From a virus, in IMG/VR virus record IMGVR_UViG_3300033571_006807, positions 1-21,242 of that record: DNA of 21,242 nt. One strand, 5' to 3'. Within the stretch, counting starts at the first letter, position 1, and every line of letters starts with the position of its first letter. The notes below the pieces were generated by a model. It ran no database searches, was not told where the DNA came from, and was given only the letters and a program-made list of their open reading frames with translations. This document shows, one piece after another, positions 547 to 14,531 of the stretch. Both the position numbers and the translations under genes were made by a program.

Positions 547-1050
547 TTACGCTTCGCCGTTGGTATCGATCACCGCAGACCTCGCCCATGGTGCAGGTGG
601 AGCCACCGGCACACCCTTTGGCCATCTTAATGCAATCAGCCTGTCTCGTGCAAACCGGCGCACGTTCACTGCATCCCCCTGATTGCCGCCCAAAATGTTC
701 AACGAGCCGTCAGCGTTCACGCTATCGACAAAGCCCACATGCCCACCGCCAGCGCGAGAGAACACAGCAATGGTGCCCAATGGTGGACGCGTTGCAGTCG
801 TGCCAATGAAGTTGCCCCACGTTGCCCAGGCCTTTGCACGGATGGCGATAGACGGTGGCTTCAAGCCAGCTTGCGTAACGCAATGCGCCGCAAACAGGCC
901 GCACCAGGGAGTCGAATCCCCAACATACCTAATGCCAAGCACAAGCGCGCCAAGACGGTTGCCCCATGACATGATGACTGGGTTGCTAGCAGCACCAGGT
1001 ACTTCGGTTGTCCCGATCAGGCGATACGCCTCAGTCATCCAGCGTGTCAT
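547..1050 (-). CDS. endolysin, TIGR02594-like CHAP/NlpC-type cysteine peptidase
   Basis: A peptidoglycan-cleaving lysis enzyme of 167 residues. Visible landmarks fit the papain-like CHAP/NlpC-P60 fold: STPWCGLFAAHC with the presumed nucleophile Cys50, GGGHVGFV with His104, and LGGNQGD with Asn123 as the likely third catalytic residue. This arrangement (WCG..., GHVGFV, GGNQ) is typical of proteins annotated as TIGR02594 in phages. No signal peptide is visible, so export would depend on the holin. I chose ATG at 1050 rather than the GTG at 1068: GGAG lies six bases before it, and it overlaps the metallophosphoesterase stop as ATGA. The C-terminus is a short Pro/Ala-rich extension. Confidence 0.85.
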   Translation of the reverse strand: MTRWMTEAYRLIGTTEVPGAASNPVIMSWGNRLGALVLGIRYVGDSTPWCGLFAAHCVTQAGLKPPSIAIRAKAWATWGNFIGTTATRPPLGTIAVFSRAGGGHVGFVDSVNADGSLNILGGNQGDAVNVRRFARDRLIALRWPKGVPVAPPAPWARSAVIDTNGEA

Positions 1051-2099
1051 AGTTTGCTCCGTTTCCACTTGAGGTATTCCACACCCTCAAATGGATCAAG
1101 GAAACACTGCACTGCGTTAGGCTTGTCTGCATCAGGATCGACCACGACCAGGCCAGACGCACCAAACTGGTGATCGCCAAAGCCATGCAGCTCCGCGTAA
1201 TCATCCATGAACTTGTAGCCACGTACCCGCATCAGCCAGTAGCAAAACTGCCGGTGTGGATTCTCGCCCTGCCTCAGACCAGTATCGTGATGGTGGCCAG
1301 CAACATACAGGTGCGCCCAATCCTGCATCTGCGCGGTTCGCTCGAGGCCATGCATGTTGTTCCAGATCGAGGTGCCTTTAAAGTTGTGCGCTGCCCACAC
1401 TCGGAAGTCGAAGCCGTTCGGAGAGCGCAGCGTAAACTTGGCTTGCCAGTCATCCATCTGCACATGATGCGGCTTGATAGCATTGAACCAGCTAGTGCTT
1501 ACCGGTCCATCCCACATGTCATGGTTGCCATGCAGCCAGATGAACCACGGCACACCGCTATCATGCAGCAACCACTTGGCCATCTTGCGCGCAGTGCTGG
1601 CTGACGTGTCTTGATTGGCCCACAGTTTGGCCAGCCTGCCTACCCAGTTGTTAGTCGTGTCGCCAATGTTGATAGCGTAAAGCCCTTCGGTATCGCGGGC
1701 TAGCTCACAGTGCTTTTGCAGCAGTGGCCAGTGACAGCCGTTGTCGTCAACGTGCGGATCACCAAAGAACATGAGGGCATAGGGGCCAGCAATCGGCACA
1801 TTAAACTGCCGCCACTGCTTTGCCTTCTTGTGCTCGAGCGCCTTCTCAAAGCGCCGCGATTGTAGTGCAATCACTTCCTCAATCGGCACGTCATCGTCAG
1901 GCAAATCAGATGCAGTGGGCAAGGATGCTATAGCTACCTGGGCAACGCGCGCCTGGTGCCGCTTTGCAGCAGAGATAATGGCTGATCTGCCGCCATGTGT
2001 GCCCTCTCGGGCTAATGCTCGTGCGCTGCCTGCTTGCTGCATTGCTGTAAAAATCTCAGCGTCACGCGCTGGATCAATGTCATATGCGTTTGTTGCCAT
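1047..2099 (-). CDS. calcineurin-like metallophosphoesterase
   Basis: A 350-residue protein with a full set of metallophosphoesterase metal-binding motifs in order: GDPHVD (113-118), IGDTTNN (145-151), LHGNHD (189-194), a His in AAHN (238) and AGHHHD (267-272). This family uses two metal ions to hydrolyse phosphomono- or diesters; the substrate cannot be read from the sequence. Residues about 10-50 are a separate helical N-terminus (AGSARALAREGTHGGRSAII) that could be a small helix-turn-helix, which would suit a nucleic-acid substrate; that is inference. It sits between a small membrane protein and the endolysin, overlapping both (TGATG before, ATGA after), so it is made with the lysis proteins. 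Phage phosphoesterases are known, but their role in this position is unclear to me. Confidence 0.85.
   Translation of the reverse strand: MATNAYDIDPARDAEIFTAMQQAGSARALAREGTHGGRSAIISAAKRHQARVAQVAIASLPTASDLPDDDVPIEEVIALQSRRFEKALEHKKAKQWRQFNVPIAGPYALMFFGDPHVDDNGCHWPLLQKHCELARDTEGLYAINIGDTTNNWVGRLAKLWANQDTSASTARKMAKWLLHDSGVPWFIWLHGNHDMWDGPVSTSWFNAIKPHHVQMDDWQAKFTLRSPNGFDFRVWAAHNFKGTSIWNNMHGLERTAQMQDWAHLYVAGHHHDTGLRQGENPHRQFCYWLMRVRGYKFMDDYAELHGFGDHQFGASGLVVVDPDADKPNAVQCFLDPFEGVEYLKWKRSKL
1057..1061 (-). promoter_or_regulatory. ribosome binding site deciding the endolysin start
   Basis: CGGAG on the minus strand, six bases before the ATG at 1050-1048. It lies in the last codons of the upstream gene and favours this start over the upstream GTG at 1068. 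Confidence 0.65.
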
Positions 2100-4104: not shown

Positions 4105-7100
4105 GCTTTCCATGTCGGAAACCACGAACACACGAGAGCCGCGCATCTTGCTTACGTTAGGGGCAATGTGACGCTCGAACACTTCACGGCTGGCAGTGAT
4201 GCAGCCAAAGGTAATGCGGCGATCCTCTGCCCCCTTTGCTGATTGCAATTCGGCAAGCCGTGCCGAGCCCTTCGGATACGTATGAATTGCCACGTTTCCA
4301 ACGAGGTTGCCCGTCTTGGGATCAGCCAAGAACAGTGCGGTTCTTGCAGTTGTGTCACCCTCAGGCGCGGCAGTGTTTGTGCCAGGGCGAATAATGAACT
4401 CGCCTGATGGGGTAACTCGCTGCTCTTGTGCAAAGCCTGCACTATAGGGTGACGACTTGGAGGTAGTAGATCGAGCAGCGGTCGCACGAGTATCAAGGGT
4501 GTCGCTAATAGCCGCACCCATTAGAGACTCGAATGAAGCAGCCGACGTGCCATCTGAGTTGAAGATGTGCGTCATGCCAGAAGGCTTATCAACAATGATG
4601 AATGGCGCGCTCGAGTCCTTGCCAGTCTTTGCGTAGGCTTCATATGCAGCCAGTGCCTTGCCCGACATCTTGCCGCGCACGTCCTCTGGCAATTTATCTT
4701 GCGCGCTGACCATTGCGTCGTCAGCAAACGGTGCTGTCACAAGCTTACGCATTGTGGCTGCCGTCTCGCCCACCAGATCGGTAAGGTTAAATGCAGGCAC
4801 GGCCTTCGTTAGCTGCTCCGCCTTCTCTGCTACGTCACCAGAAAACTTTGACGCTGCGTTTTTGGCGGAGGAAAAAAGATAGGAAAAGATCGACGGAGAT
4901 TCCTGTGGAGTAATAGTTGGCGCTTGAGTTGCTGGCATAGAGACAGGACTCACAGCCTCCACAGCGGGTTCGTCTCCATCAATATCAGGCTCAGGCTCCA
5001 CAAACTCTTCGATCAAGCCAGCATCAACCATCATCTTGTTGAAGTCCTTCATGAAGAAATCAAACTCCATCAGGCTGGCAAGGGGGATTGCGCGGCGGAT
5101 CATACCGGCGCGCTGATACTCATTAATGTTGGGATTGGTATTCGTGAACGCCTCGAGCACACCCGTAATAACACCAGCAAATGGGCCGCCAATTGCACCA
5201 ACTTTTTGGCTAATCAAATCCTCTCCATAGGGCTCAATGCCAGCAGCGCTTCTCATGCCATATCCGGTTAGCATTTCTGTTTTTTTAAGAACGTCGCCCA
5301 TCCAGCCCATGATGCCAGAACTTTCAAAGGCGCTCACAAAGCGCTCTTTCCAGTCCATGCGTTCCCAGCGGTCGCCAGCCCGCAACCAAGTGCTGATGTA
5401 GCCACCCATAAGCATAGCGGCCAACGATATGGTTACGCTCCGATCACGCCCAGTTGCCGCAGCATGGTTAAACTTAGCCGAGCTTGATACGGAGAAGGAA
5501 AGCAAACTAAACGGCAGCGAAAGGAACGGCATTTCCTGGCGCTCCCCATCAAAACGCACCACACCATCCATAATTGGATGACGCTGGTTTGGTCCTGGCG
5601 TAACAACCGCCGATCTAATCTGTCCTTGCGATGCAGCACGGAAAACATCTGCCGCCTCAGAGCCTAGCTTTCCTGACCAGGCATCAATGTTAGGCAGAAT
5701 CAAACCGCTGTCTGTCGTTTTTTCCCAAGGCATTTCTGCAATCACTCGAGCCATACGAGGATTAATGCCAAAGCTGCTTAGTCTTGCAGCCGTTTGCATT
5801 TCCGCCTTGGTCAAAGTTTCTGCCGTGCGCCCTTCGTTGAACGCCTTTGCAATCGAAAGGCTATCCTCGATCAAGCGATGATTGCCGATCATGCCAACAG
5901 TTTGTTTCCAAACAACAGTGAACGGGTTCATCAAGTTGGCACGGAAAAGCCAAGGCTGAGATGCAGCAAGGCCGCGCTCAAATGCCGTTTGCTTTGTCAC
6001 CATAAGCGCAGAATCGTTCTCGATCATGCGAGACATCGAGGATGACATTGCAAGCTCAAGAGCTTCGCCAAATTGTTGAGCATTTGCACCGCGAACAAGC
6101 GACTTAAACTGTCCGTCCCATGCAGTGCTAAGTGCAGCAAAAACAGGACGATAGCCAATCTGAGCTAACGCTTTGGTAACATCGGTTGTCTGTGAATACA
6201 GGCCGCTGCCCATCAATTGAAGGCGCTCAAGGTTTTTAATCGCACGAACAGTGCGATTACTCCAACTCATTGCGTCTTTGCCGTGAAACCTATTCAGCGT
6301 TTTGTCGCGTGAATCCTCGACAAGTTGAATAGCCTTTTCAATCTGGTCAGTCTTGTAGCCCTCGGAGATTAGGGTGGTCCTAAGCTCATCAAGTTGCTCT
6401 TCCAGATCAAGGGAACCATAGCGACCTTGCATCTCGATTGCTGGGCCCATGCGACGAGCATAGATGCCCATAACCGCATCTGAATCCCACACGATGAAGT
6501 CAGCTAGTTCTTCATTGGTCAGGTCAAGTTGGCGTCCCCGTGTGTTTTTGGGACTGCCAATGCCATCGCTAGGCAAGAACTCTTCGCCGCCATTGCCAAT
6601 GATTCGATTAGCCACGTCTCTTGCTCGGCCAAAAGCTGCTTCGTCGCCGCCGAACGATTCAGCAATGCGCTTTACGAAGGCGTCAAAGTTGTCCGTGATC
6701 TTCTGAATGTCGAAGAAACGAGGGAAATAATACTTCTCACGGGCTGGCTTAACCGGAGTCGCATTGAGAGTCTGCTCCAGATCGACAAGCTCGAGCAATC
6801 TATCAATGTGCTTCTGGTTCTGCGCCTTTAAGAAAGGCACCATGCGTTCAGCATACCCCTTAGCCCTCGTTGACAAGGCAGGCGGTGCGCGCGGTGTTCC
6901 GTCAGGCATAAGGCCGGGATCGTAGGGAGGCTTGCCAGCAAGACGCTCTTTCTCGGCAAGTTCGGCAACCTTGCCCATCTCCTTGCCAAATATTTCAGCC
7001 TTCTCGCTCGTAGTCAGACGGCGACCGAGCTCTGCTTCTCGGGCCTTAGCGTCATTGAGCTTGCCTTCCAGTTCAATCAGATACTCAAGGTTCCGATCAA

Positions 7101-9702
7101 GCGCGGCATTACGCCATGCAGTTTCTCGCTTAAGAGATTTCTGACCATCGAACAGTTCGGCTGCACGAGAACCTTCCTCAAAGTCAGCAAGGCTTTTGCG
7201 AATTTGATCACCAGCCTTGCGCACAAAAGACATTTCCTTTGGCGTCAGGCTTATGCCGTTCATCGTAAAATCTTCGTCGGTATTTGCAGCCCGACCAGTG
7301 AACTCACGAAACTGAGGAAAGGTCATTTTGTTTCCGCGAATAGCCCGCCCAATCAAGGGGATCTCGGAAACAAGTGTTTGAGTTGATGCCGAAAGTTGAG
7401 GACGCGGTTTGGGCGTTTCACCGCGAAGATAGTTTATGTAAGCCTGTTCGTTTGCATCTTTCACAAAGGCAACGTGACGCTGCCACATAAGCGATTTCAT
7501 AAACACAGAACCACCTGGAGTGGTTGCGCGAAGCACTTGGTTGGCTAGTGTCATGCTCTGATAGTCGCCGCCGATCCCCTCAAAGAGCTCGTATGCAGCG
7601 CGATGCTTTTGACCCAGCAAAGATACTAGTTGGCCCGTTGGAATAACGGCCAGCCAGCTTCTAGCAAGCTTACCACCAGCTGCAGCCAATGGAGCGCGCT
7701 CACTCTTAACTTCCTCAAGAGCGATCTGGCTGATTCGATTTTCAAATGCAGCATCAGTTTCAGTTGCCAGTTTTGCAGTGATGTTGCGATTGGCTTCCTT
7801 CAACATAAGGAAGTCCAGCCACTCTGCGGGGGTGCGGAAAGCATCATCAGGCAACGGAGCTACACCCTCCATCGAGGGACGGGTCCACGGTTTAGCAGGG
7901 AACTCTGCGATAGCAGCAGAGCTATCGATCACAATGGAGTCGTCATCAATAGTTGAGCGCAGAGGCGTAGGCGTAAGCAATTCAGTAATCTGATTGCCAG
8001 CATGCATATTGCTATAAGCTTCAAAGCCGGGAACATCATCTGCTAATTGCCACAACTCCAATGGGGCACGTCCTACAGCAGGCTCTGAATAAATAGAAAT
8101 GTCTCGAGAACTTGGAGTGGTTCCCCACTTATTGGCTTTAGGATTCCATGTAAGCAGCGTAGCCTTGCCATCTTTAATAGCTACTCGTGCACCTTTCTCA
8201 CCCAATCCTTGCAAACCAGCAGCGCTTAAAGCGGCAGCCTGTTCTGCGGATTCAACATAAACAGTTTTTGCCGAAGTTGCTTTAGGGCCAAAGTCGCCTT
8301 CATGACCGGGATCATTGCGCTTTGCTTTTACGCGGGTTGTGCGACCTTCATTATCGAGCGTGTAAGTTGAACCCTTGGCCGTTTTAAAACCGTTAGGAGC
8401 AGGCACATCATCTGCACCAATGCGAACATTCAAGGGCTCCCCAGTCATGGCGTCCGTCAAGCGCCACTTGCCAGCAGGAATAATCACATCCCCGTCTGTG
8501 TAGATCGCAGCCTCACCCATAGCCTCGCGCTTTAGGCCAGGCACGGCGTCAGCCTCGACCTCGAATACTACGGAGTTGCGGGCGGATCGATCACCACCAG
8601 GAATACGGGTAGCGTAGTCGGTTGCCACCTGCCGCTGCACACCGAAGGAAACGCCAGACAGGCCAAAATTTTCACCGGGCCTGAGTGTCAGGTTTCCATT
8701 GCCATCGACAAAAGAGTCCACGTTATCAGGCGACACTCTGGTCCCATGATACACGGTCGGACCAATGGGCGCGTCAATGTCGTACTCAAAAGCGTTTGGC
8801 TTAGAGAGTTCCTCTTGCAGCAACTCATCGGCACTCTTGGCTCCCACGGGAACCTCATCAATCGTAACTCGAGCGCCTACTGCGTTAGTCTCGCTTGCAG
8901 ATCGGAAGGAGGCAAACTGATAGCCCCCATTGGCATCGTACTTGCCAGTGTTGCCATCGACAACTTTGAAGCCCTTACCGCCCATGTCAAAAGACGACAG
9001 CGGAGAAATGTTATCGCCAACAGAAGCGGCCTCATCAAAGCGAGCAGCCAGCGAGTTAACCGCGTCCTGCTCCAAACCATCCAGCGGCACAGGCTGACGA
9101 TTGCGTAGCGCGTGACCAATAGCCCCAGAGAAGAGGCCACCAAGCAGGATGCCAGCGCCAATGTTTACCGCTGTTTCTGCGCTCGTACTTGTTGGATCAA
9201 GCTCATGTCGAAGCACTTCTTGCCCAGTGTTGATTGCGCCAATAGCAGCACCGCCACGCAGTGCCGCTTTGACAAAGCCAATCCCCGCCAAGCCAGGAAC
9301 AGGAATCAGGTTCACCGGGTCAACAAGGCCAGCAACAAAGCCAGACAGCAGGTTTGTACTCAGGTCGTATTCCGACAATCGATTGCGCGCCGCATTGTTC
9401 TCATCAATGTTGCGGGTAATTACGTCCGCTTCTTCAGCATTGCGGGCATAAGCATACTCTCGAGCGTACTTCTCGTAGCCACGAGGAATGTTGTCCAGCC
9501 CGTCAAAGGTCGCATCAATGCCAGCGCCTCGAGCATACAGCCGCTCTCCAAGGTCCTTGATCTGTCCATAGACGCCAAGCGCCATCTGGTTTTTGACGGC
9601 ATCAAAAGTTTCGCCAAAGAATCCCCGTTCGGGCTCAGATGGTTGAGCCGGAAGAAGTGGCTGAGGCGAACGCTGACGGATTCCGGGAAGAGGAACTTCC
9701 AT
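4102..9702 (-). CDS. giant gp16-like ejection protein with ART-like and L,D-transpeptidase-like domains
   Basis: At 1866 residues this is larger than T7 gp16 (1318), in the matching position after gp14- and gp15-like genes. Such proteins form the head core and enter the cell with the DNA. Visible parts: hydrophobic Gly/Ala-rich segments at about 119-160 and 178-199; an ADP-ribosyltransferase-like segment at about 315-415 (VYHGT with His319, VSFG at 351-354, ATDYA with Tyr363, VIIPAGKWRL near 406-415); an unassigned Gly-rich module at about 440-550; a long helical central region, including YYFPRFF at 991-997; a Pro/Glu-rich linker; and a C-terminal YkuD-like domain from about 1700, with AIH at 1805-1807 and ITFGC with Cys1834. 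The usual transglycosylase is not seen. The ATG follows the upstream TAA directly. The overall role is confident; the ART call is tentative. Confidence 0.8.
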   Translation of the reverse strand: MEVPLPGIRQRSPQPLLPAQPSEPERGFFGETFDAVKNQMALGVYGQIKDLGERLYARGAGIDATFDGLDNIPRGYEKYAREYAYARNAEEADVITRNIDENNAARNRLSEYDLSTNLLSGFVAGLVDPVNLIPVPGLAGIGFVKAALRGGAAIGAINTGQEVLRHELDPTSTSAETAVNIGAGILLGGLFSGAIGHALRNRQPVPLDGLEQDAVNSLAARFDEAASVGDNISPLSSFDMGGKGFKVVDGNTGKYDANGGYQFASFRSASETNAVGARVTIDEVPVGAKSADELLQEELSKPNAFEYDIDAPIGPTVYHGTRVSPDNVDSFVDGNGNLTLRPGENFGLSGVSFGVQRQVATDYATRIPGGDRSARNSVVFEVEADAVPGLKREAMGEAAIYTDGDVIIPAGKWRLTDAMTGEPLNVRIGADDVPAPNGFKTAKGSTYTLDNEGRTTRVKAKRNDPGHEGDFGPKATSAKTVYVESAEQAAALSAAGLQGLGEKGARVAIKDGKATLLTWNPKANKWGTTPSSRDISIYSEPAVGRAPLELWQLADDVPGFEAYSNMHAGNQITELLTPTPLRSTIDDDSIVIDSSAAIAEFPAKPWTRPSMEGVAPLPDDAFRTPAEWLDFLMLKEANRNITAKLATETDAAFENRISQIALEEVKSERAPLAAAGGKLARSWLAVIPTGQLVSLLGQKHRAAYELFEGIGGDYQSMTLANQVLRATTPGGSVFMKSLMWQRHVAFVKDANEQAYINYLRGETPKPRPQLSASTQTLVSEIPLIGRAIRGNKMTFPQFREFTGRAANTDEDFTMNGISLTPKEMSFVRKAGDQIRKSLADFEEGSRAAELFDGQKSLKRETAWRNAALDRNLEYLIELEGKLNDAKAREAELGRRLTTSEKAEIFGKEMGKVAELAEKERLAGKPPYDPGLMPDGTPRAPPALSTRAKGYAERMVPFLKAQNQKHIDRLLELVDLEQTLNATPVKPAREKYYFPRFFDIQKITDNFDAFVKRIAESFGGDEAAFGRARDVANRIIGNGGEEFLPSDGIGSPKNTRGRQLDLTNEELADFIVWDSDAVMGIYARRMGPAIEMQGRYGSLDLEEQLDELRTTLISEGYKTDQIEKAIQLVEDSRDKTLNRFHGKDAMSWSNRTVRAIKNLERLQLMGSGLYSQTTDVTKALAQIGYRPVFAALSTAWDGQFKSLVRGANAQQFGEALELAMSSSMSRMIENDSALMVTKQTAFERGLAASQPWLFRANLMNPFTVVWKQTVGMIGNHRLIEDSLSIAKAFNEGRTAETLTKAEMQTAARLSSFGINPRMARVIAEMPWEKTTDSGLILPNIDAWSGKLGSEAADVFRAASQGQIRSAVVTPGPNQRHPIMDGVVRFDGERQEMPFLSLPFSLLSFSVSSSAKFNHAAATGRDRSVTISLAAMLMGGYISTWLRAGDRWERMDWKERFVSAFESSGIMGWMGDVLKKTEMLTGYGMRSAAGIEPYGEDLISQKVGAIGGPFAGVITGVLEAFTNTNPNINEYQRAGMIRRAIPLASLMEFDFFMKDFNKMMVDAGLIEEFVEPEPDIDGDEPAVEAVSPVSMPATQAPTITPQESPSIFSYLFSSAKNAASKFSGDVAEKAEQLTKAVPAFNLTDLVGETAATMRKLVTAPFADDAMVSAQDKLPEDVRGKMSGKALAAYEAYAKTGKDSSAPFIIVDKPSGMTHIFNSDGTSAASFESLMGAAISDTLDTRATAARSTTSKSSPYSAGFAQEQRVTPSGEFIIRPGTNTAAPEGDTTARTALFLADPKTGNLVGNVAIHTYPKGSARLAELQSAKGAEDRRITFGCITASREVFERHIAPNVSKMRGSRVFVVSDMES

Positions 9703-11820
9703 TTATTTCACCCACAATGGTTCGCGGTTTCTACGTTCAAAAGCAATCTTGTCTTTCTCGGCCTGAGTTAGAGGCTGAGATACAGGAGGCGTCAATGGCG
9801 CACCTCTAGTTCTTGCCTTCTCTTCACCACGCAAAGCTAGCGCAGCGCCAAGGTCGATAGGAAGCACAGGCAACATAAGCCTGCTCGGGTTGGTAGGATC
9901 GTAAACCTCAATTCGATATGCGCCTACGTCAGCAACGTCGTCATCTGCCGGGACAAACTTGATGTTACCACCTGGACCAACTGTGTGCTTCTTGCCACCG
10001 GGAGCGGCGGTCAGAAACGGCTTGCCCTGGATAGTAAGGTTGCTCACCAGATCGGCAAGCTTCTGGTTTGTAGCCACACGTGTAAGCACGGCAGGGCCAA
10101 TTCCGTTTCTAAACACACTGCTTCTTGTGTACAGGGGAGCCACCTGTCCCAATGCAGCATCGAGCGCGGCCTCTGGATTGCCGGGATGAAGATCAAGGTT
10201 ATCGACAAAAGCCTGATTCACTCGAGAGCGAATATTGGAAGGCACCGTCGAACCCTTAGGCAAGCCAAAGTAAGACGGAGCCTTGCTATCAAGGTCAACG
10301 TCAAAGCTCCTAGTCTTTGATGATCCGCGATTATAGGACCCTCGAGCCTCGTCAAACGTAAAGCCAGTAGATGTTCTAGTCTTGTCAAGCAGGGTTAGCA
10401 CATCGGACGGAGGAGTGCCCATCTCTAGCGCCATAGTGGCACGACGGAACAAGGCGGCAGAACGCGAGTCCATCCTTGCCAGCATTAGATCGCCAACCGC
10501 AGCACCGTTCACACGGGCTTTGCTAACGCTGCTAAACAGATTGACCGCCGTCATCGGATCACTCGAACGGATACGATTATCCATCCATCCGACAACCTCT
10601 TTCGGCACATACTGTGTGTCGCCAATAAAAGCCAGCAACGCATCGCTTCCATTGGGCGCATTAAGCCCTTTGAACCCAATGGTTTTCATAAACTTTTGGC
10701 TTAGATAGGCTTGAGTTTTGGCGTCGTAGTTACCGGTGTAATCCCCGTTCTTTGCTTCAATAAGAGCGTTTTCAATCCGAGCAGTGCGCGCCTCTTCTCT
10801 TGCATCTCTACGCGCCTCAGCCGCTGCAGCGCGGGCTGCGGCTGCCTCTTGGGAAAGCTTTTGCCTGCGATCAGTGGCAATTCCGCGAACGATGCGCTTG
10901 GCAAAATCGCTCAACCCATAAAGCTTTTCAGTTGCAAAGATGGGAAGCTCTTTACGCAGGCTTCCCCCTGAGCTGACATTATCTAGCCGCTGTTCAACTA
11001 TTTGCAGTTCATCACCGGAAAGGCCGAGGATAAAGGGAGTTGCCTCGTTAACAGTACGCATGCTGTTTGCGTTGTTAAGAGCTTCTGCAAGTTCAACCTT
11101 GGTATCTTCCTGCATTGATTCGCCAAGCCTCTTCCCAAGAGTGCCTGCATTTATTGCTGCATCAGTTAGGGTAGTTATTTGAGCTTGGTAATTAGCCACT
11201 TGAGCCACATCGCCCTTCTCGGATGCGGCAGCCATTAGCTTGACAAGCCGAGCATAGTCGTTGTTCAGGCCGGCAATCTGATCCTGCCGTGCGCGCTGGC
11301 CAGCCTCGCCGTAGACAGCGCGAGTGCGCTCCTGTCCTTCACGCCCAAGTGTTTGCTCAAGCATTGGGCGCACACGAGGATCGACAACCTCGAGCATACC
11401 CTCAAGAGTGCCTTGAACAAATGCGCGATACGATTCGGCGTCTAGCTTCTTGCCATTCTCGCCTTTACGCATTGCCTCAATTTCGGCATCAAGCTTTGAC
11501 TGGAAGTCGAGCGAGACGTTGGAAACGTAACGAGCTTGAGCTACTTCGTCAAATGCCTGCTGATACAGTAAGCCTGCACCTTCGGGCGTATTGATAGGAA
11601 GTGCACGACCCTTTTCGTCACGCACAATCTCCACCTTGCCCGCATCAGCCTGCGCTTGCTTTACAGCCTTTGCGCGTAGTGCAGGTTGAGCAGCCTCAAA
11701 TATCTGACCAGCCGCACGAGAGATTGACGGACCAACGTCAGCAATCTGTGGAGCATTACCAGACAGAAGGCTTCCAGGGCTCGAGATACCAATGCGACGA
11801 CGAAAAGGTTCAATGGCCAC
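9703..11820 (-). CDS. internal virion (ejection) protein, gp15-like
   Basis: A 705-residue, mostly helical, Ala/Arg/Glu-rich soluble protein with no signal peptide or membrane segment. It lies between the gp14-like and gp16-like genes and is close in length to T7 gp15 (747). In T7, gp15 and gp16 form the core stack and a periplasmic conduit for the genome; the same role is inferred here. The region around residues 310-350 is an Arg/Ala/Glu-rich helix likely to be a coiled coil. The start is GTG at 11820, supported by GGAGG seven bases before it. The stop TAA is followed directly by the ATG of the gp16-like gene. Assignment relies on synteny, length and composition. Confidence 0.75.
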   Translation of the reverse strand: MAIEPFRRRIGISSPGSLLSGNAPQIADVGPSISRAAGQIFEAAQPALRAKAVKQAQADAGKVEIVRDEKGRALPINTPEGAGLLYQQAFDEVAQARYVSNVSLDFQSKLDAEIEAMRKGENGKKLDAESYRAFVQGTLEGMLEVVDPRVRPMLEQTLGREGQERTRAVYGEAGQRARQDQIAGLNNDYARLVKLMAAASEKGDVAQVANYQAQITTLTDAAINAGTLGKRLGESMQEDTKVELAEALNNANSMRTVNEATPFILGLSGDELQIVEQRLDNVSSGGSLRKELPIFATEKLYGLSDFAKRIVRGIATDRRQKLSQEAAAARAAAAEARRDAREEARTARIENALIEAKNGDYTGNYDAKTQAYLSQKFMKTIGFKGLNAPNGSDALLAFIGDTQYVPKEVVGWMDNRIRSSDPMTAVNLFSSVSKARVNGAAVGDLMLARMDSRSAALFRRATMALEMGTPPSDVLTLLDKTRTSTGFTFDEARGSYNRGSSKTRSFDVDLDSKAPSYFGLPKGSTVPSNIRSRVNQAFVDNLDLHPGNPEAALDAALGQVAPLYTRSSVFRNGIGPAVLTRVATNQKLADLVSNLTIQGKPFLTAAPGGKKHTVGPGGNIKFVPADDDVADVGAYRIEVYDPTNPSRLMLPVLPIDLGAALALRGEEKARTRGAPLTPPVSQPLTQAEKDKIAFERRNREPLWVK

Positions 11821-11823
11821 TAA

Positions 11824-12354
11824 TTAGCCTCCGATTGGTCTAGGTGTTTTAGCTGCTGTTGGCGTCTTGGTTTGGTTATATGCTGATCCAATTTGAGCAA
11901 TGTCACCGGCAAAGCCAGCCACCGCACCGATCTTCTGCATACTAGCATTGTAGCCAGCCACATCACGCGAGAATCGATTAACACGAATCTGCGAAGCAAG
12001 GCGACTCTGCGTAGTGACATCGCCCATACGGATAGCGCCAATGTCTAGGCGAAGTGCGCGTTCCTCGGCAGGCATAACGCCTTGCAGGAAGCTGATGTTT
12101 TCACGCACACCCGAAGCTGCTAGTGCCGCAGCATTGGTAGCTCTTTGCCTACGGAAATCACCAAGGCGCTGAATCTCAGCCTCCTGCGCCTGCAGGCGAG
12201 CAAACTCACGTTCTTCATTCAGTTGCTTACGCTGCTCATCGAGGATCGTTTGCTGCGCCCGCTTGTTAGCATTGGCCGCGCCAATCGAAGCTGCAGTGCC
12301 AACGCCCTTAGCAACAAGAGATGCCGCTGCAACAACGGCTGCCGAGACACACAT
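11824..12354 (-). CDS. internal virion (ejection) protein, gp14-like
   Basis: A 176-residue protein with a hydrophobic Ala/Val N-terminus (about 3-30), a charged helical stretch likely to form a coiled coil (about 35-70, QQTILDEQRKQLNEEREFAR) and a second Gly/Ala hydrophobic segment near 145-160. T7 gp14 has 196 residues and forms the outer-membrane pore during genome ejection; size, topology and order (gp12, gp14, gp15, gp16) all match. The ATG overlaps the tubular protein B stop in TAATG. It ends three bases before the gp15-like GTG, whose ribosome binding site lies within its last codons. Confidence 0.75.
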   Translation of the reverse strand: MCVSAAVVAAASLVAKGVGTAASIGAANANKRAQQTILDEQRKQLNEEREFARLQAQEAEIQRLGDFRRQRATNAAALAASGVRENISFLQGVMPAEERALRLDIGAIRMGDVTTQSRLASQIRVNRFSRDVAGYNASMQKIGAVAGFAGDIAQIGSAYNQTKTPTAAKTPRPIGG

Positions 12355-14531
12355 TAGAAAGACACCTCCATGTTCATCCCCAGCACCCTCAGGGGCAGTG
12401 GCTCGTCCTGATTGATCGTAACCTTTGCCTCCCTGTTGTAGCCCAGCAAGAAGAACTCCTTGATCCCAGTAAAGCGCGCAGGCGCAATAGACAGATCGTC
12501 CGTCACCTGCCGCAGTAACAATCGGTTGCCCGACACAACACAGGACAGTGTGCTGTTCAGGCCCACCAGAACGCGGTTGATCCGCTTCGGCATACCCAAC
12601 AGAGAACCAGTGGGAAGCTGCAAGTGCACGGGCAGGGTGGTAATCTCCACCGGATAGCTAAAGCCCGCAGTCAGGGTTGTTACCGGATCGGGCAGGGTAA
12701 TCACACCAGAGCCGTTGGCCGTGAACGTGCCAAGGTACATGTCGTTCGTAACAACATGGACCACCTTACTGGCATAGTAGGAGCCTAGCGTCCAAGTCGC
12801 ACTAGATGCACCAGTCAGAGTGATCGCGCTGTCGAGCGTCAATGCCTCAGCATCAGAGAAGCGCTCGAGCGTGTAGGTCGAATTGCGCTGCACAACGACA
12901 AAGATCAATTCGCCCAGAGTGCATACCGAACGAAACAAGTTGCTTGTGCTGTCGCCCAAGTCCCACGTTGTCCAGCCTGCCACGTTCTCGGAGCGCGCAG
13001 AGTTGAACACCGCCATCGTGCCGTCAGTGTTTACCAGCAGGGCATACTGCTCACCGCGCACCGTTGATCCAAATAGCACCGCCATGTCAATCGGACTGTT
13101 AATCAGGTGGCTCGAAAGCAGGCTAATGTCCGTCGAGGCATAGCCATTCACGCCATCGTTATAGACATACTCACGCACGGACTTGCCAGACCCCTGCACA
13201 AACAGAGTCGCGCCATCAAAGGGCAAAGGCGTCACGTCACTTGAGCCAAAAGGCGTCTGCCTAGCCACGCGGATAGTCAGGGGAGTAACTGCCTGATTGC
13301 TCGAGCGAGGCACAAAGAACTCACCGCTTGCTGTAAAGATTTGCAAGTCACGGTTCGAGACGATGTGCTTGACGTTCGAGATGTCCTCACTGCCAATGGT
13401 GATCTGGATGCTCTCGTTGTCGAGCCCCTCGCCAACATTGAAGTTGAAAAACTCGCCAATCTTGGAAGCCCACAAACCATCAGGAATTGCACTGCTACCG
13501 CCAAACCAGAGACGGTTCTCATGGAAGGCAACCGCACCAGGATAGCCATTGGCTGGCGAGAACGCCTGCTCAGACCAGTCACGCGTTGCAGTCGTGCTGC
13601 TCGTGTACTTGACCGAAGGCCCGCCGCCATCTTCTGACACGTTTGCATTGTGTCCAGTCGCGTAACTATAGCGATTGTCATCAATCACAGTGATTGAAAA
13701 AGTGCCGTTGATTTGAGCAAAACTAATTCCAGCAAAGCCGTTAGCATTGCTAATCGTCACGCTCTGGCCAGTGGCAAAACCATGCAGTGCATGTGTAACT
13801 TCAACTACGTCGCTAGTGTGCGTAGTACGCAATGGATTAATATCAAGAGAGCCCTCGAGCTTGCCCTTGATGTTGCCCACCAATGTTGTGCTGTTGGTGA
13901 ACGCGGTAATCAGAATCTCAACGTCCTTCCAACGGACGATGGTTCCAACATAGCTAGACGTGAATACGCCAGCAGACGCAGTGATAGTTACGCCAGTGCC
14001 AGTCGTCGCACTTACGCTGATCGTCACGATGTCAGCAGCAAACTTGTAGTAGGGCTGGTATATGCTGTTGGCGTCGAGGCTGGTGTCGAACGCAAACGTG
14101 CTGATGGTAAAGCTGCTTGCGCCTGTGCGACGGATTACCCTCGGAGCCCACGAAGGATGGCAAACGATCATCACGTCAGCAGCCTGAGTGTAGCTGATCT
14201 GGCGAAGCTGTGCGCCGGTCCAGGGCACACCACTCGTGATGGACGTAAGCAGGGTGCCCGTCGTGTTGAACACATCGAGCCGACCATTGCTCAACGCAAA
14301 GACGTAGCGCTCAGTAGAGGAGAACTCGAAAGGCAGGAGTCGGCTATCGCCAAGCAGAGTCGCAACGTAACGGGTGCCCGCCCTACGGCTAACGCCGCCA
14401 GTGTTCAGCATAGAGACGTTACGCAGGCGCGCTGCACCATTCTGGTATGCGCCAGTGTCCACACGCATACGCAGCAGGGGATCAACCTCCCCAGATGAGA
14501 AGTTGGTCTGGACCTGCTTAATGGTGGGCAT
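12354..14531 (-). CDS. tail tubular protein B, gp12-like nozzle
   Basis: A 725-residue protein, similar in length to T7 gp12 (794), which forms the tail nozzle. The N-terminus is diagnostic of this family: NFSSGEVDPLLRMRVDTGAY, then NGAARLRNV and TGGVSRRAGTRYVATL. The rest is beta-rich, Ser/Thr/Val-heavy, as expected of a propeller-type nozzle platform; residues about 338-400 (FHENRLWFGGSSAIPDGLWAS, then DNESIQI) are another commonly conserved block in these proteins. It starts in a TAATG overlap with tubular protein A and ends in a TAATG overlap with the gp14-like gene. Confidence 0.88.
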   Translation of the reverse strand: MPTIKQVQTNFSSGEVDPLLRMRVDTGAYQNGAARLRNVSMLNTGGVSRRAGTRYVATLLGDSRLLPFEFSSTERYVFALSNGRLDVFNTTGTLLTSITSGVPWTGAQLRQISYTQAADVMIVCHPSWAPRVIRRTGASSFTISTFAFDTSLDANSIYQPYYKFAADIVTISVSATTGTGVTITASAGVFTSSYVGTIVRWKDVEILITAFTNSTTLVGNIKGKLEGSLDINPLRTTHTSDVVEVTHALHGFATGQSVTISNANGFAGISFAQINGTFSITVIDDNRYSYATGHNANVSEDGGGPSVKYTSSTTATRDWSEQAFSPANGYPGAVAFHENRLWFGGSSAIPDGLWASKIGEFFNFNVGEGLDNESIQITIGSEDISNVKHIVSNRDLQIFTASGEFFVPRSSNQAVTPLTIRVARQTPFGSSDVTPLPFDGATLFVQGSGKSVREYVYNDGVNGYASTDISLLSSHLINSPIDMAVLFGSTVRGEQYALLVNTDGTMAVFNSARSENVAGWTTWDLGDSTSNLFRSVCTLGELIFVVVQRNSTYTLERFSDAEALTLDSAITLTGASSATWTLGSYYASKVVHVVTNDMYLGTFTANGSGVITLPDPVTTLTAGFSYPVEITTLPVHLQLPTGSLLGMPKRINRVLVGLNSTLSCVVSGNRLLLRQVTDDLSIAPARFTGIKEFFLLGYNREAKVTINQDEPLPLRVLGMNMEVSF

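Follow-up and report, generated by a model that had tools for sequence, protein, structure and literature searches.

Does the giant ejection protein of a short-tailed phage carry an ADP-ribosyltransferase (ART), an enzyme that tags other molecules, into the host cell? The question is raised by a 1866-residue open reading frame (ORF) in a 21,242-nucleotide IMG/VR fragment (the whole stretch analysed here, referred to as the window), whose source phage is short-tailed and known from metagenomes only. A first-pass annotation, made from the letters alone, had described an ART-like segment inside this ORF, and the motifs it listed (a His at residue 319, a Tyr at residue 363, VVFEVEADA and VIIPAGKWRL) are all found in the ORF at the places it gave (Table 1). 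The best reading of the analysis below is polyvalent-type effector cargo borne by an ejectosome protein: we consider it somewhat better than an even proposition that residues ∼310–421 are a compact, H-Y-[EDQ]-related member of the ART superfamily, housed in a gp16-type ejection protein and injected as a host modifier.

Table 1. Positions of the features discussed, numbered along the window (residue n of the 1866-residue ORF occupies window positions 9702-3n+1 to 9702-3(n-1)).
Feature	Window position	Strand	Basis
T7 gp16-like ejection (internal virion) protein, 1866 aa	4102..9702	-	PHROG 342; homologues L002-L008 and Pelagibacter phage Hodr
Hydrophobic segments, residues 117-199, putative inner-membrane part	9106..9354	-	Hydropathy scan
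Insertion relative to the Hodr gp16-like protein, residues 222-609	7876..9039	-	Holds the ART-like and second modules
ART-like module, residues 310-421	8440..8775	-	AF2 model, Foldseek neighbours, PolyVal ART profile match
H319, predicted catalytic His, strand 1 (YHGT)	8746..8748	-	Invariant; falls on the YHGT His of the RPP1 vRNAP ART
S352, invariant Ser, strand 2 (GVSFG), place of the classical triad Tyr	8647..8649	-	Alignment, model
Y363 (ATDYA), helix past strand 2	8614..8616	-	Invariant; model helix residues 357-364
E397 (MGEAAIY), candidate third catalytic residue	8512..8514	-	Invariant in near group; hhalign; model
Second cargo module, residues 430-575	7978..8415	-	Common to PBC5 DarB-like protein and a plasmid MobF relaxase
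gp15-position gene, 705 aa	9703..11820	-	Gene order and size only
T7 gp14-like internal virion protein, 176 aa	11824..12354	-	PF24072 (E 0.0016, below the Pfam cut-off); PHROG 418 (E 5.9e-4)
Nozzle / tail protein	12354..14531	-	PF25675 (E 2.4e-14); PHROG 376 (E 2.3e-130)

The carrier protein and its insertion site

By its sequence, the ORF product is a T7 gp16-type ejection protein, as the first-pass annotation had held. In a family scan it matches PHROG 342 (internal virion protein with endolysin domain) at E 3.9e-31, and the same family matches the gp16-like homologues of L004 and of Pelagibacter phage Hodr over most of their length. Upstream of the gene lie the gp15-position gene, the gp14-like gene, and then nozzle and tail genes, giving the gp14-gp15-gp16 order, with gp15 placed by order and size only and its product drawing no family match in the Pfam and PHROG scans. 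The protein thus shares with T7 gp16 both the family match and the place in the gene order, whereas the N-terminal parts (lytic transglycosylase and tape region) are missing from it (the match starts at about profile position 271), and it carries an insertion of ∼390 residues as well as an extension at the C terminus. The extension (residues 1590–1866; window 4105–4935, minus strand), which is not present in the homologues, has an L,D-transpeptidase-like look (IHTYPKG...ITFGCITAS), a likeness unsupported by Pfam and PDB searches. Near the tail genes, a 350-residue protein (window 1047–2099, minus strand) matches PHROG 7339 (DNA repair exonuclease).

Among named phages, Hodr is the nearest by its gp16-like protein, and BLASTP homology to that protein ends at residue 221 and restarts at residue 610, which places the ART-like module within the insertion, shortly after the hydrophobic segments. 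Because PHROG 342 positions 271–416 match residues 74–225 of the window protein, the insertion starts near profile position 416. In the model of T7 gp16, residues 1–228 are periplasmic and residues 411–1118 form a cytoplasmic toroid, with gp16-C assigned to the cytoplasm (PMC8954989). By profile numbering against T7 gp16, the module would face the cytoplasm, and we regard its delivery to that compartment as likely on this analogy. NAD+ is available in the cytoplasm and not in the periplasm.

The insertion also holds a second cargo module. Sinorhizobium phage PBC5 has a matching stretch in its DarB-like protein (63–64% identity), as does a conjugative Paraburkholderia plasmid in a MobF relaxase (58%); both are delivered proteins of the polyvalent kind, a class of multidomain injected proteins whose several effector modules are common to phages and conjugative elements. 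The second module also matches Roseobacter phage CRP-9 at 29%. This second module is not present in L003, L004, or L006–L008, and L003 is otherwise ∼90% identical to the window protein. When the window is compared with L002, the second module has a dS of 0.12 (0.56–0.84 in the flanks), a low value which suggests recent exchange, and in L005 the site is occupied by another insert. Together, the absence from L003, the low dS against L002, and the differing insert of L005 suggest that the gp16-type protein has a hot spot at which cargo is inserted. The L005 insert (gp16-like ORF 7140–11810, after residue ∼430; LFHGYGR...YMSFSKTEAQNFG...DGIDGIVI) has, by eye, the look of a PolyVal ART; as a second ART it is unsupported, with a score of 14.4 and 34 of 300 shuffles as high.

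Relatives and predicted fold of the ART-like module

In all, 11 metagenomic sequences contain the module, and they place it in two unrelated kinds of protein. The near group comprises seven viral contigs in which it is 79–88% identical, and the distant group comprises three copies (L025–L027) at ∼30% identity, which were found by a motif search of both strands of the viral collection and subsequent follow-up. The distant copies reside in an unrelated giant protein of 2243–2282 residues (PHROG 10618, unknown function), whose gene in L026 lies a few genes past a terminase. Profile-profile comparison (hhalign) joins the two groups with a probability of 96.8 and E 2.9e-10. Module relatives were not found in bacterial genomes or named phages (the search of plasmids was made with the L027 version only), and those known are few and metagenomic.

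Compared with L004, the module has an amino acid identity of 0.80 and a dN/dS of 0.08, against 0.43–0.50 and 0.18–0.32 for the other regions compared; across L002–L004 its dN/dS is 0.07–0.08, these ratios being rough because dS is near saturation. Between L025 and L027, protein identity is ∼90% outside the module and 42% within it, and the module therefore behaves as an exchanged unit. On these sequence comparisons, the segment at ∼310–421 is a discrete, real module, beyond chance.

The AF2 model of residues 310–421, computed from an alignment that includes the distant relatives, has a pLDDT of 82.5 and a pTM of 0.78. A first model, built from eight closely related sequences over a longer stretch, had a pLDDT of 52.2, and its Foldseek list held no significant neighbours; the gain came when the three distant relatives were included as registered fragments and the flanks were trimmed, and in the final alignment the distant rows are without the E397 region. 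The predicted model has the split beta-sheet core of the ART fold, and its strand order and residue placement fit an ART. Against the PDB, the best Foldseek match is Tpt1 (prob 0.89, TMq 0.47), and further neighbours include Arr-2, CNFy (which we take to carry an ART-like domain), CARDS, ParT, PARP16, MbcT, PltA, and PARP1. ART folds make up nearly all rows with TMq ≥ 0.30 among the PDB top 50; none of the PDB matches falls under E 0.001, and 0.47 is the best TM-score. Against viral models, the best match has a probability of 1.00 and E 1.7e-3, and the neighbours include a named rifampin ADP-ribosyltransferase, PARPs, and a PolyVal ART.

Scans of the module with Pfam, PHROG, and NCBIfam gave no match to ART family models, and a PDB sequence search returned chance hits only. 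The PolyVal ART model PF18760, run directly, had no match at E ≤ 10 in G000–G007; it does match, at 41 bits, the virion RNA polymerase (vRNAP) of Roseovarius Plymouth podovirus 1 (RPP1; CBX87992.1), the PolyVal ART prototype (PMC5512222). As an independent sequence test, a PolyVal ART profile was built from the RPP1 prototype aligned with three relatives. The merged module profile scored 26.5 against it, a value reached by none of 400 column shuffles (11.4 ± 2.3), and a reversed-profile control scored 12.0; the near-group profile alone was weaker (18.0, with 10 of 400 shuffles as high). The match brings H319 onto the His and Y363 onto the Tyr of the DYA motif, and it spans only the first ∼70 module residues (strands 1–3), with the E397 half outside. 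Both the ART-like fold and the kinship with polyvalent-protein ARTs that had been proposed for this segment are thus upheld, the latter over strands 1–3, and ART-superfamily fold and homology are very probable.

Candidate active-site residues

In a nine-row alignment, H319, S352, Y363, R366, and E381 are all invariant, and the conservation expected of the His and Tyr was therefore observed. H319, in strand 1, occupies the place of the His of the H-Y-[EDQ] clade. The strand-2 Tyr of that clade is replaced by the invariant S352, a position where, in our reading, PARP1 (Y896), diphtheria toxin (Y54), and Arr have their strand-2 Tyr, while Y363 presumably corresponds to the second Tyr (Y907 in PARP1, Y65 in diphtheria toxin); these equivalences also use an ungapped alignment to PolyVal ARTs over that stretch. 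Since S352 occupies the strand-2 triad position, Y363 is probably the second, helix-borne, nicotinamide-stacking Tyr. Of the H-Y-E order suggested by the first-pass annotation, the His and, as a candidate, the Glu can be retained, and the assignment of Y363 as the triad Tyr cannot. The accepted PolyVal member RPP1 has a Phe at the strand-2 position, so this site is not fixed even among accepted members; a Ser is nonetheless unusual there and lowers our confidence in catalysis.

For the third catalytic residue, E397 and D405 had both been put forward. D405 is ruled out, being a Pro in all seven near relatives, and this lack of conservation leaves E397 as the candidate. E397 is invariant across the near group, is paired by hhalign with the Glu of TSEYRV/AEIRV in the distant relatives, and is the first residue of a strand in the AF2 model. 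The assignment draws on hhalign and the model because MAFFT misplaced this region of the distant relatives. E397 is the best candidate for the third residue and most likely supplies the strand-5 Glu/Asp/Gln of the clade, with the alignment less sure in this C-terminal half of the module. Because PF18760 does not match and the strand-2 Tyr is missing, we file the module as a divergent relative of the PolyVal / H-Y-[EDQ] ARTs.

Proposed role, alternatives, and known systems

By analogy with T7 gp16, the carrier protein would be packaged in the virion core and would refold upon ejection, and its hydrophobic N-terminal part would cross the inner membrane, so that the module would come to lie where the cytoplasmic hub begins. 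In this position, it would bind NAD+ via H319 and Y363, use E397 as its catalytic acid, and might transfer ADP-ribose to a host target ahead of phage gene expression. We put the chance that this putative enzyme is active at even or slightly above.

The module could instead retain an ART fold that is catalytically dead or repurposed, serving the ejectosome as a structural or binding domain (e.g., a DNA, peptide, or NAD+ scaffold). A Ser stands at the triad Tyr position in every relative, and the module is the slowest-evolving of the regions compared with L004, as a structural interface could also be. However, H319, Y363, and E397 are retained over ∼30% identity, and the versions in L025 and L027 diverge inside a ∼90% identical protein, as cargo would. 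Moreover, Hodr manages without the module, which is therefore not a needed structural part, and we consider a dead or repurposed domain unlikely, at roughly one chance in a handful. An active enzyme of the superfamily whose target is not a host protein, being an NADase or acting on nucleic acid or a small molecule (as with Tpt1, Arr, and DarT), appears less probable again. The closest solved folds are indeed Tpt1 and Arr-2 and not protein-modifying toxins, and T7 gp16-C binds DNA (PMC8954989), but the statistical sequence link is to the PolyVal ARTs, which are predicted to modify proteins (PMC5512222). That the module is some other alpha/beta fold, with the YHGT...DYA resemblance due to chance, would agree with the weak Foldseek E-values and the lack of family-model hits; it is very improbable given that the high-TM neighbours are nearly all ARTs, that the profile score exceeds all 400 shuffles, and that strand order and residue placement fit an ART.

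The reading as injected effector cargo can be set beside several known systems. Like the ART-PolyVal family (PF18760 / Tox-ART-HYD2 clade), typified by RPP1, the module is a small ART-like unit of H-Y type within a very large protein encoded by a short-tailed phage. The N4-type vRNAP is likewise a virion protein, and the motifs of strands 1–3 align (YHGT, G-x-x-F, A-x-D-Y-A, V-x-E-V). The module differs in having a Ser for the strand-2 aromatic residue and a Glu (E397), not an Asp, as third residue, as well as in escaping the PF18760 model, and its carrier is a T7 gp16-type ejection protein, whereas that of RPP1 is a virion RNA polymerase. The comparison with T4 Alt drawn in the first-pass annotation holds for the proposed logic of a virion-packaged ART injected with the DNA, and it is an analogy only, because Alt belongs to the R-S-E clade (PMC5512222); Alt is also a free head protein, whereas the H-(S)-Y-E module is part of an ejectosome. 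MuF-type proteins similarly fuse an ART to a virion component among head genes, and the L026 carrier gene lies near a terminase; among the proteins scanned, none showed a MuF domain. Injected ARTs are reported to be rare in podoviruses, an ART of any kind being present in ∼3% of siphoviruses and podoviruses (PMC9503650).

Injected ARTs are already known from T4, and others have been predicted, both within the virion RNA polymerases of N4-type phages and in head proteins of the MuF type. We found no earlier report of an ART inside a T7 gp16-type ejection protein in the literature searched, which does not prove absence. More tentatively, the T7-type ejection machine might use an insertion site behind the membrane-crossing part of gp16 to thread interchangeable effectors (the H-S-Y-E ART, the relaxase-shared module, and others) into the cytoplasm prior to gene expression. 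The phage may bring a ready-made host-modifying enzyme before its own genes are read. If the module is active, the DNA-ejection tunnel would itself be an effector delivery device, and the substrate of this small enzyme would reveal what such phages disable or redirect earliest in infection.
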